From the NCBI RefSeq assembly GCF_034259205.1, contig NZ_CP139487.1, forward strand, positions 2,976,001 through 3,040,000: DNA of 64,000 nucleotides, in the 5' to 3' direction. The translations under genes were made by a program, and so were the position numbers. The stretch comes from Peredibacter starrii (GTDB lineage Bacteria; Bdellovibrionota; Bacteriovoracia; Bacteriovoracales; Bacteriovoracaceae). The notes under the pieces were generated by a model that searched no databases, had not been told where the DNA came from, and saw only the letters and a program-made list of their open reading frames with translations. Below are positions 55,763 through 57,056 of this stretch, in pieces (position 1 is the first letter of the stretch; the number at the start of each line of letters is the position of its first letter).

Positions 55763-55786
55763 AAAAAAAAGCCCCTTACGGGGCCT
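55763..55786 (-). terminator. Rho-independent terminator of the infC-rpmI-rplT operon
   Basis: On the minus strand GGCCCC, loop GTAA, GGGGC and then eight T. It begins about 13 bases after the rplT stop. Confidence 0.85.
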
Positions 55787-55798
55787 TCTCAATAAGAA

Positions 55799-56143
55799 TT
55801 ACTTAGTTGCTTCAAAGATAGCTTTGAAAGCGTTGAAGTCATGAACTGCAAGCTCAGAAAGCATCTTACGGTTGATCGTAATATCTTTCTTCTTAAGACC
55901 AGAGATGAACTGGCTGTAAGAAGTGCCAAGCATACGAGCTCCAGCATTGATACGAACGATCCAAAGCTTACGTACATCTCTCTTAAGAAGACGACGACCG
56001 ATGAATGCGTAATGAAGAGCACGACGAACTGTCTCAGAAGCATGCTTATACTTCGTACGACGGTCGAAGTGGAAACCCTTCGCTAGTTTAAGTACTTTGT
56101 TTCTACGTTGGCGGGCTTTAAAACCGCGTTTTACACGTGCCAT
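55799..56143 (-). CDS. rplT: 50S ribosomal protein L20
   Basis: 114-residue L20: MARVKRGFKARQRRNKVLKLAKGF, then DVRKLWIVRINAGARMLGTSYSQFI. Primary binder of 23S rRNA and in other bacteria the repressor of its own operon. GGAG precedes ATG. Last gene of infC-rpmI-rplT; a hairpin with a short U-tract lies between it and rpmI. Confidence 0.97.
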   Translation of the reverse strand: MARVKRGFKARQRRNKVLKLAKGFHFDRRTKYKHASETVRRALHYAFIGRRLLKRDVRKLWIVRINAGARMLGTSYSQFISGLKKKDITINRKMLSELAVHDFNAFKAIFEATK

Positions 56144-56214
56144 GATGGCTCTCCTTCTTCGTTCATAGGGGGACTAATTGTCACTTAACCCTATTTCACT
56201 ACTCTTGATTAATA

Positions 56215-56238
56215 TAAAATCGCGCCAGAGGCGCGATC
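56215..56238 (-). terminator. Terminator-like hairpin between rpmI and rplT
   Basis: On the minus strand ATCGCGCC/GGCGCGAT is a perfect 8-bp stem with loop TCT, followed by TTTATATT. It lies directly after the rpmI stop but inside the operon. It may reduce rplT transcription or protect the rpmI mRNA end. Confidence 0.5.
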
Positions 56239-56244
56239 AAAAAA

Positions 56245-56445
56245 CTACACTAGGTATGGAATACACATTGCGGCGTTATGATAATCACCTGGGTGAACGT
56301 AACCCGGAGTGTTCTTATCTTTCTTCGCTTTCTTAGACTTGTTTACAAGTAAGTGACGAAGGTGAGCCTTCTTATACTTAATTTTACCAGTAGCTGTTAC
56401 TTTGAAGCGTTTTGCAGCTGCACGCTTAGTTTTCATCTTAGCCAT
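56245..56445 (-). CDS. rpmI: 50S ribosomal protein L35
   Basis: 66-residue basic protein starting MAKMKTKRAAAKRFKVTATGK and containing HLLVNKSKKAKK, as in L35. ATG 56445 is chosen because GGGAG is about ten bases upstream and the family begins with MAKxKT; the frame is open 14 codons further. A terminator-like hairpin with eight U ends just before its ribosome binding site. Confidence 0.95.
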   Translation of the reverse strand: MAKMKTKRAAAKRFKVTATGKIKYKKAHLRHLLVNKSKKAKKDKNTPGYVHPGDYHNAAMCIPYLV

Positions 56446-56458
56446 ATTATGGACTCCC

Positions 56459-56487
56459 AAAAAAAATGCACCCTTAAAAGAGTGCAT
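56459..56487 (-). terminator. Terminator-like hairpin with U8 between infC and rpmI, candidate attenuator
   Basis: On the minus strand TGCAC (56482-56486) pairs with GTGCA (56467-56471), with additional inner pairing CTT/AAG and a T-G wobble, followed directly by eight T. The rpmI ribosome binding site comes right after the U-run. A second perfect hairpin, GTTATC/GATAAC at 56491-56506, precedes it. This is the arrangement of a ribosomal-protein attenuator, though no L20-binding fold can be proven by eye. Confidence 0.6.
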
Positions 56488-56528
56488 GAAGTTATCACGG
56501 GATAACTCATATTTAAAGTGTTTTCGTA

Positions 56529-57056
56529 CTATTTTTTCTTGCCTGGGGCAACCATCGCAATTACTCGATTCCCCATCATTTTAGACGGAGCTTCGATCAC
56601 AGCACCCTTCTCAAGGATCTGTTTCACGATTTCATCGAACTTGGCCAAACCAATTTCTTTATGGGCCATCTCACGTCCGCGGAATTGCATAAGTAGCTTA
56701 ACTTTATCCCCATGATCAAGGAATTTTTCAATGTGATTCAGTTTCACTTCCATATCGTGTTTTTCGATGTTTGGACGGAACTTGATCTCTTTGATCTCGA
56801 TCACAACTTGCTTCTTCTTAGCTTCAGCAAGTTTCTTCTGGATTTGGTATTTATACTTACCGTAATCCATCATCTTCACGACTGGTGGAACAGCATTCGG
56901 AGAAATTTCGATTAGGTCCAATCCTTCTGAATCGGCCATAATACGTGCCTGGGCCAGAGTAACAATCCCGTAGGCCTTACCATCGTCTCCGAGTAAACGG
57001 ATTTCATGAGCACGAATTCTCTCATTCACACGTGGTTCTTGAACTTTCTCGCTTAT
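56529..57056 (-). CDS. infC: Translation initiation factor IF-3 (probable ATA start)
   Basis: IF-3 assists selection of the start codon and subunit dissociation. The core runs VNERIRAHEIRLLGDDGKAYGIVTLAQA to FRGREMAHKEIGLAKF, all IF-3 marks. No ATG lies near the N-terminus. GGAGG (57063-57067) ends six bases before ATA (57054-57056), giving 175 residues (ISEKVQEPRVNERI); the alternative GTG at 57027-57029 has no ribosome binding site. Non-AUG starts are known for infC and let IF-3 limit its own synthesis. First gene of infC-rpmI-rplT. Confidence 0.93.
   Translation of the reverse strand: MSEKVQEPRVNERIRAHEIRLLGDDGKAYGIVTLAQARIMADSEGLDLIEISPNAVPPVVKMMDYGKYKYQIQKKLAEAKKKQVVIEIKEIKFRPNIEKHDMEVKLNHIEKFLDHGDKVKLLMQFRGREMAHKEIGLAKFDEIVKQILEKGAVIEAPSKMMGNRVIAMVAPGKKK

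Follow-up and report, generated by a model that had tools for sequence, protein, structure and literature searches.

The window, a stretch of 64,000 nt from Peredibacter starrii, carries infC, rpmI and rplT on its minus strand. These genes and the features described below are collected in Table 1. The infC frame most likely opens at an ATA codon (57056-57054) with GGAGG in front; across congeners GGAGGTGGGTT is followed, in frame, by ATA or ATT. The rare ATA codon behind GGAGG is the apparent start in nearly every listed congener, L171 having ATT, and ATT stands at a similar position in many other family members. In E. coli the infC start is AUU and serves the self-control of IF3. Judged by rplT, the nearest named relatives carry the record label Bacteriovoracaceae or Bacteriovorax stolpii, with 91-98% identity among the top entries. 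A search of the window against Rfam returned zero families at the gathering score.

Three samples were compared. The genus sample comprised 25 congeners, of which 24 distinct rows were used for pair counting. The family sample comprised 59 genomes; infC was found in 56, and all three genes lay on the fetched stretch in 53, rows L009, L010 and L052 dropping out. The 960-nt gap of L016 was excluded from the descriptor and terminator-pattern counts and was trimmed in the promoter-spacing tests. For the rest of the phylum, 60 of the 107 genomes with an rplT match were chosen by hand across families, and these gave 55 measurable rpmI-rplT gaps (>2 nt).

Table 1. Genes and sequence features of the infC-rpmI-rplT locus (positions in the window)
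Feature	Position	Strand	Basis or remark
infC (IF3)	56529..57056	minus	NCBIfam infC equivalog on 56529-57029, above cut-off
Predicted -35 of rpmI-rplT promoter	56512..56517	minus	Alignment A10 columns 22-27, mean identity 0.95
Hairpin 1	56491..56506	minus	GTTATC 56506-56501 pairs with GATAAC 56496-56491
Predicted extended -10, TGATAACTT	56489..56497	minus	Overlaps hairpin 1
Predicted transcription start, A56483 or C56482	56482..56483	minus	From position of the -10; inside 5' arm of terminator
Putative intrinsic terminator of infC transcripts	56459..56487	minus	Stem ATGCACTCTTTTAAGGGTGCAT 56487-56466, 9 bp, 4-nt loop; T run 56466-56459; fold energy and pattern scan
rpmI ribosome-binding site GGGAG	56454..56458	minus	Directly after T run
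rpmI (L35)	56245..56445	minus	NCBIfam rpmI_bact equivalog, above cut-off
Strong GC-rich GCGC hairpin, GATCGCGCCTCTGGCGCGATT	56218..56238	minus	Directly 3' of rpmI; single copy in genome
Candidate L20 leader	about 56158..56204	minus	Genus covariation, RNAalifold, model R2, 23S comparison
Candidate leader, P1		minus	56199-56198 with 56162-56161
Candidate leader, P2		minus	56194-56189 with 56170-56165
Candidate leader, core		minus	AAG 56186-56184; pair G56184-C56171; bulged T56183
Candidate leader, P3		minus	56182-56180 with 56174-56172
rplT ribosome-binding site AAGGAG	56151..56156	minus	Read in sequence; adjoins 3' side of L20-type element
rplT (L20), presumed regulator	55799..56143	minus	NCBIfam rplT_bact equivalog, above cut-off; single copy in genome
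End-of-operon terminator 3' of rplT	55766..55788	minus	Hairpin and T run read; hairpin aligned in lax Rfam match

A candidate L20 leader between rpmI and rplT

A small hairpin element was found in the gap between rpmI and rplT. Its plan (NNNGGG and a loop ending in AAG, then a single base and a small hairpin, then CCCC plus the complement of NNN) was recovered by an anchor search in 46 of the 53 family gaps. In these 46 sequences the bases flanking the anchors paired in 93, 78 and 70% of cases, as against 53, 54 and 46% in shuffles (reached by 0 of 2000), and at flanking positions 4, 5, 6 and 8 pairing was not above shuffles. The C run stopped 8-19 nt short of the rplT ribosome-binding site (median 12, same 46 sequences), and no terminator lies between the candidate leader and rplT in the window. 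A CCC run was absent in seven of the 53 family gaps, including L020 and L022; in L022 the candidate leader is apparently present with CCTCC in place of the run.

Covariation was assessed in the genus alignment A11 (25 congeners). Paired cells amounted to 93.8% versus 87.2% in shuffles, double-change cells to 23 versus 7.9, and the covariation score to 0.289 versus 0.139, none of these values being reached by any of 500 shuffles; two of the five measures were no higher than in shuffles (reached by 203 and 304 of 500), and kinship among the sequences can inflate the remaining ones. GGG/CCC and AAG were each present in 25/25 rows, and RNAalifold recovered P1 and P2 unprompted in the genus. When 23 other family members were aligned to model R1, the score was 0.210 versus 0.144 (0/500 shuffles), in a fitted alignment that leans to its structure. 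Beside the candidate leader, purine-rich GAGAGTAG and GAAGAAG (56156-56162 and 56200-56205) are near-invariant in the genus and are not complementary to each other. The GC-rich hairpin directly 3' of rpmI is not conserved in form; at this place congeners have either no hairpin or an unrelated one.

MAFFT alignments of the short elements (A1, A2 and A4-A7) slid the C run, and hence hand-chosen seeds were used for two covariance models. R1 was built from 15 seeds (A3) with the window's genus excluded, and R2 from three seeds (A8), the window not being among them. R1 matched eight non-seed family elements at E <0.01 and did not detect the window element at E 10. R2 matched the window element (E 2.1e-6) and all 24 genus loci scanned. 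Outside the window's clade its matches were few (5 of the 17 matches listed in 28 loci, one of them clearly significant; L031 was matched at E 0.0014), and little was gained on the 28 loci with filters off. As R1 misses the window and R2 finds few elements outside the clade, the family-wide unity of the element rests on position, descriptor and covariation. The strict descriptor, which was composed after sight of the sequences, fired in 33 of 53 family gaps (54/2650 shuffles) and in 22 of 23 further genus gaps (6/1150 shuffles). In infC-rpmI gaps it fired in 0/52 of the family, 0/23 of the further genus members and 2/31 of the rest of the phylum, and roughly twelve further matches lie at other places in the window. 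None of the 55 rpmI-rplT gaps from the remaining phylum matched the descriptor. The candidate leader appears to recur through one family, the Bacteriovoracaceae, and was not met in these 55 gaps. Five genomes of other families of the phylum (L105, L106, L107, L111 and L126, three of which belong to one family, f8) have rpmI-rplT gaps of 64-104 nt with unrelated hairpin-like sequence.

From the resemblance of the element to the H40/H41 site of 23S rRNA we infer that free L20 would bind it, and that bound L20 would hinder ribosome entry at the rplT ribosome-binding site 8-19 nt downstream; control would then be a translational block with no terminator involved. In this way the candidate leader probably lets L20 limit its own production. 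The element might instead be the leader for a different ligand, or a site of processing or of importance for stability. It is small, and domain II of 23S rRNA is bound by other proteins too; however, wherever found it stands just before the L20 gene, and its order of features is that of the 23S H40/H41 junction and of the Rfam family RF03126, which precedes rplT in Desulfuromonadales. We therefore regard a role unrelated to L20 as unlikely.

Terminator and predicted promoter between infC and rpmI

The gap between infC and rpmI had been interpreted, in a sequence-only reading, as holding attenuator-like tandem hairpins, with L20 as a possible sensor. The components of that description were found in place. 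The first hairpin is perfect, and the second is a terminator-grade stem followed by eight T, the first of them shared with the stem as its final base; the rpmI ribosome-binding site comes immediately after. An 85-nt segment (56444-56528) folded at -19.4 kcal/mol, as compared with -11.97 +/- 2.82 in shuffles (3/200 as good). For the terminator hairpin alone the values were -11.3 and -2.29 +/- 1.51 kcal/mol (0/200 as good). The terminator was also found by a simple pattern scan, although such patterns are fairly common in this region (six in 3 kb versus 3.3 expected).

Conservation of the two hairpins as one structure was not borne out. Neither stem covaried above shuffles in the 25 congeners. 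In the 24 distinct rows the score for both stems was 0.166 versus 0.155 in shuffles and 79.2% of cells were paired versus 78.2%, the pairing and score values being reached by 97 and 96 of 500 shuffles, respectively. Slid controls paired at most 47.9% of cells, below the actual hairpins, so that the sequence is kept, though without covariation. At three of the seven positions of hairpin 1, pairs formed in only 9-13 of the 24 distinct rows, and the RNAalifold consensus of the genus gap included neither hairpin. A conserved terminator stem with compensatory changes, the mark of a transcription attenuator, was not found in the genus rows. The strict terminator pattern was present in 17/25 genus rows and in 10/50 other family gaps. 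Seven of these ten family terminators (L027, L028, L029, L032, L036, L039 and L044) lie >100 nt before rpmI, or differ in sequence and place; three (L003, L024 and L026) are nearer. In eight of the 25 congeners the terminator is lost or weak and the promoter-like sequence is retained. A lax Rfam scan of the gap gave no L20-type match (the best hit, Yersinia Ysr49, scored 28 bits where the cut-off is 95), in agreement with the earlier remark that no classical L20 leader fold is visible there.

For the sequence conserved in hairpin 1, a promoter is a better fit than an attenuator hairpin. Throughout the genus the layout is a TTTATC -35 (TTTAAA in the window, TTTATC in most congeners), a 17-nt spacer and a TGnTAACTT extended -10. 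The spacer was gapless in 25/25 rows, and TG plus the T, A, T and T of TAnnTT were invariant in 25/25. Identity in the genus was 0.95 for the -35, 0.67 for the spacer, 1.0 for TG and 0.88 for the -10, so that the sequence displays the conserved -35, constant spacing, TGn and conserved -10 of an extended -10 promoter. Among the other family gaps, the pattern TTTA[CT][ACT]-N14-TGnTA (spacer 17) occurred in 24/51, and at each of 13 other spacings (11 to 24) in at most 1/51; the scoring of an earlier comparison was itself tilted towards spacing 17, so that the fixed pattern across spacings is the fair test. Genome-wide, the exact -10/-35 pattern with up to two mismatches occurred 82 times, versus 72 for the reversed control, and was not enriched; the case for a promoter hence rests on position and constant spacing. 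The conserved block resembles what an rpmI-rplT promoter would look like. A dyad, CRTG-N7-CAYG, surrounds the -10 (window 56484-56500; A10 columns 40-43 with 51-54), and one of its pairs is altered on both sides in three rows. It may act as an operator, or as a weak hairpin that competes for the arm of the terminator.

The predicted start lies within the terminator's 5' arm. RNA starting at A56483 or C56482 would retain a stem of -2.7 or -0.9 kcal/mol instead of -11.3; a start at G56485 would keep a stem of -9.7 kcal/mol, which counts against escape from termination. In the genus the 5' arm is kept (identity 0.99) and the 3' arm drifts (0.82), and the 5' arm sequence persists in congeners that have lost the stem. 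Such a difference is expected if the 5' arm doubles as a start region. We infer that infC transcripts end at this terminator and that a separate rpmI-rplT transcript starts from the extended -10 promoter within the same 83 nt. Read-through RNA from infC would carry the full stem and stop, whereas RNA begun at the predicted start would lack half of the stem and should pass. The infC-rpmI gap would then be an operon boundary, with stop and start in the same bases. In a search of open-licence papers no report of such a promoter-terminator overlap was found.

The hairpin might also serve mainly as a 5' stabiliser, or as a cleavage site separating infC from the rpmI-rplT mRNA, as RNase Y reportedly does in B. 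subtilis. Its position between infC and rpmI would suit this role, as would a functional wish to uncouple IF3 from L35 and L20. Nevertheless, the eight-T tract immediately 3' of the stem marks it as a terminator, and the conserved predicted promoter would already uncouple the genes; we give this explanation a low probability. An attenuator in which L20 or another signal sets read-through from infC into rpmI-rplT would draw on the terminator directly before rpmI (kept in 17/25 congeners), on possible pairing of the short CRTG-N7-CAYG dyad with the beginning of the 5' arm, and on B. subtilis, where L20 acts by stabilising a terminator according to passages of PMC6097659, but it appears improbable given stems that do not covary, a promoter-like sequence that outlasts the terminator, and an L20-like element that sits downstream, the infC-rpmI gap itself having no L20-type Rfam match.

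Proposed organisation of the locus

An operon boundary in the infC-rpmI gap, combined with L20 feedback through the rpmI-rplT element, is the explanation that we consider reasonably probable. More tentatively, the Bacteriovoracaceae may possess an L20 leader of their own, a fuller copy of H40/H41 than the deltaproteobacterial type, which would control rplT alone within the rpmI-rplT message; in the window's genus the start of this message would be built into the infC terminator. The sequence-only reading seems to have taken two ordinary parts for one unusual part. Two further readings, a kink-turn in the GAA/GA internal loop and an rpmI frame running on through the hairpin, were set aside. Its suggestion that L20 control here is a separate solution holds in so far as a non-classical element is supported; this element is placed before rplT, downstream of the terminator, and not at the hairpins where L20 had been proposed as the sensor.

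If this organisation is true, a family-wide L20 leader missed by current Rfam models would be added to those known; it would offer one more scaffold on which the same rRNA is mimicked, and would help to ask whether such leaders reflect shared descent or repeated origin. Having the start site overlap the terminator would offer a compact means of uncoupling the gene for a translation factor from those for ribosomal proteins. The case also cautions that a terminator within a ribosomal-protein cluster is not necessarily an attenuator. No L20 leader in Bacteriovoracaceae was reported in the open-licence papers searched.

Comparison with 23S rRNA and known L20 leaders

For the comparison with 23S rRNA, the Rfam bacterial LSU model was aligned to the genome's own 23S sequence. 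The LSU consensus at H40/H41 is GGu-[CCCuAA]-g-u-gcgggc opposite gcccgc-c-aCC, and the window element is GGG-[UUAA]-G-U-GAC opposite GUC-C-CCC. Both have GG pairs, a 5' loop ending in AA, one G-C pair, a bulged U, a helix and, on the 3' strand, C followed by NCC. They differ in that UAA/GAA adjoins the GG pairs in 23S, whereas the element in the mRNA has three more pairs first.

The L20 operator of E. coli is a two-site arrangement before rpmI. In contrast, one compact site is present here, before rplT only. The E. coli operator mRNA sites mimic 23S, and L20 leaders share with it two G-C pairs plus AA, as stated in parts of Eckert and Weinberg 2020 (PMC7247131). With the Firmicutes leader of the B. 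subtilis type (RF00558) the element has in common the L20 ligand, putative here, and a 23S-like site. That leader precedes infC and forms a terminator on L20 binding, according to the relevant passages of PMC6097659. A match to the RF00558 model before infC with a terminator was not found in the window, even by lax scan; the positive control, an Epulopiscium locus, was detected.

The closest counterpart is the deltaproteobacterial L20 leader, which sections of PMC7247131 report and propose as a 23S mimic (in a table there the gene appears as rpsT, probably in place of rplT). RF03126 (L20-Deltaproteobacteria) was recognised as that family by scanning named deltaproteobacterial loci, and the control scan was positive before rplT in 9/20 loci, from Desulfuromonadales and similar groups. 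At the gathering cut-off RF03126 gave 0/41 in family genomes, scanned with stricter filters and 100 candidates scored per genome, and 0/39 in phylum genomes. In lax scans neither RF03126 nor any other L20-type family matched the window stretch (E 5) or 20 family loci (E 1). Conversely, R1 had no match in 21 mostly Desulfuromonadales loci. In the RF03126 consensus an outer stem and a bulged u are followed by GA/UC and an A/A loop, and then by a stem that terminates in GG/CC with AA after it. The R1 consensus of the Bacteriovoracaceae element appears to keep the same order of features, and the element too lies directly upstream of rplT and has inner GG/CC pairs and AA nearby; unlike RF03126, it has after GGG a longer loop ending in AAG and then a G-C pair with a bulge before a third helix. 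At the GA/UC columns each pair was formed in 22 of 23 members from the rest of the family, in the alignment fitted to R1, and the window's genus has G-U/A-C or G-A/U-C type pairs instead. Because RF03126 stayed below its cut-off and R1 was without a match in that group, we call the element a variant that would work like RF03126, not a member of it. Overall, our verdict from the sequence comparisons is that the locus holds a divergent variant of the known L20-leader type, together with a predicted operon boundary.
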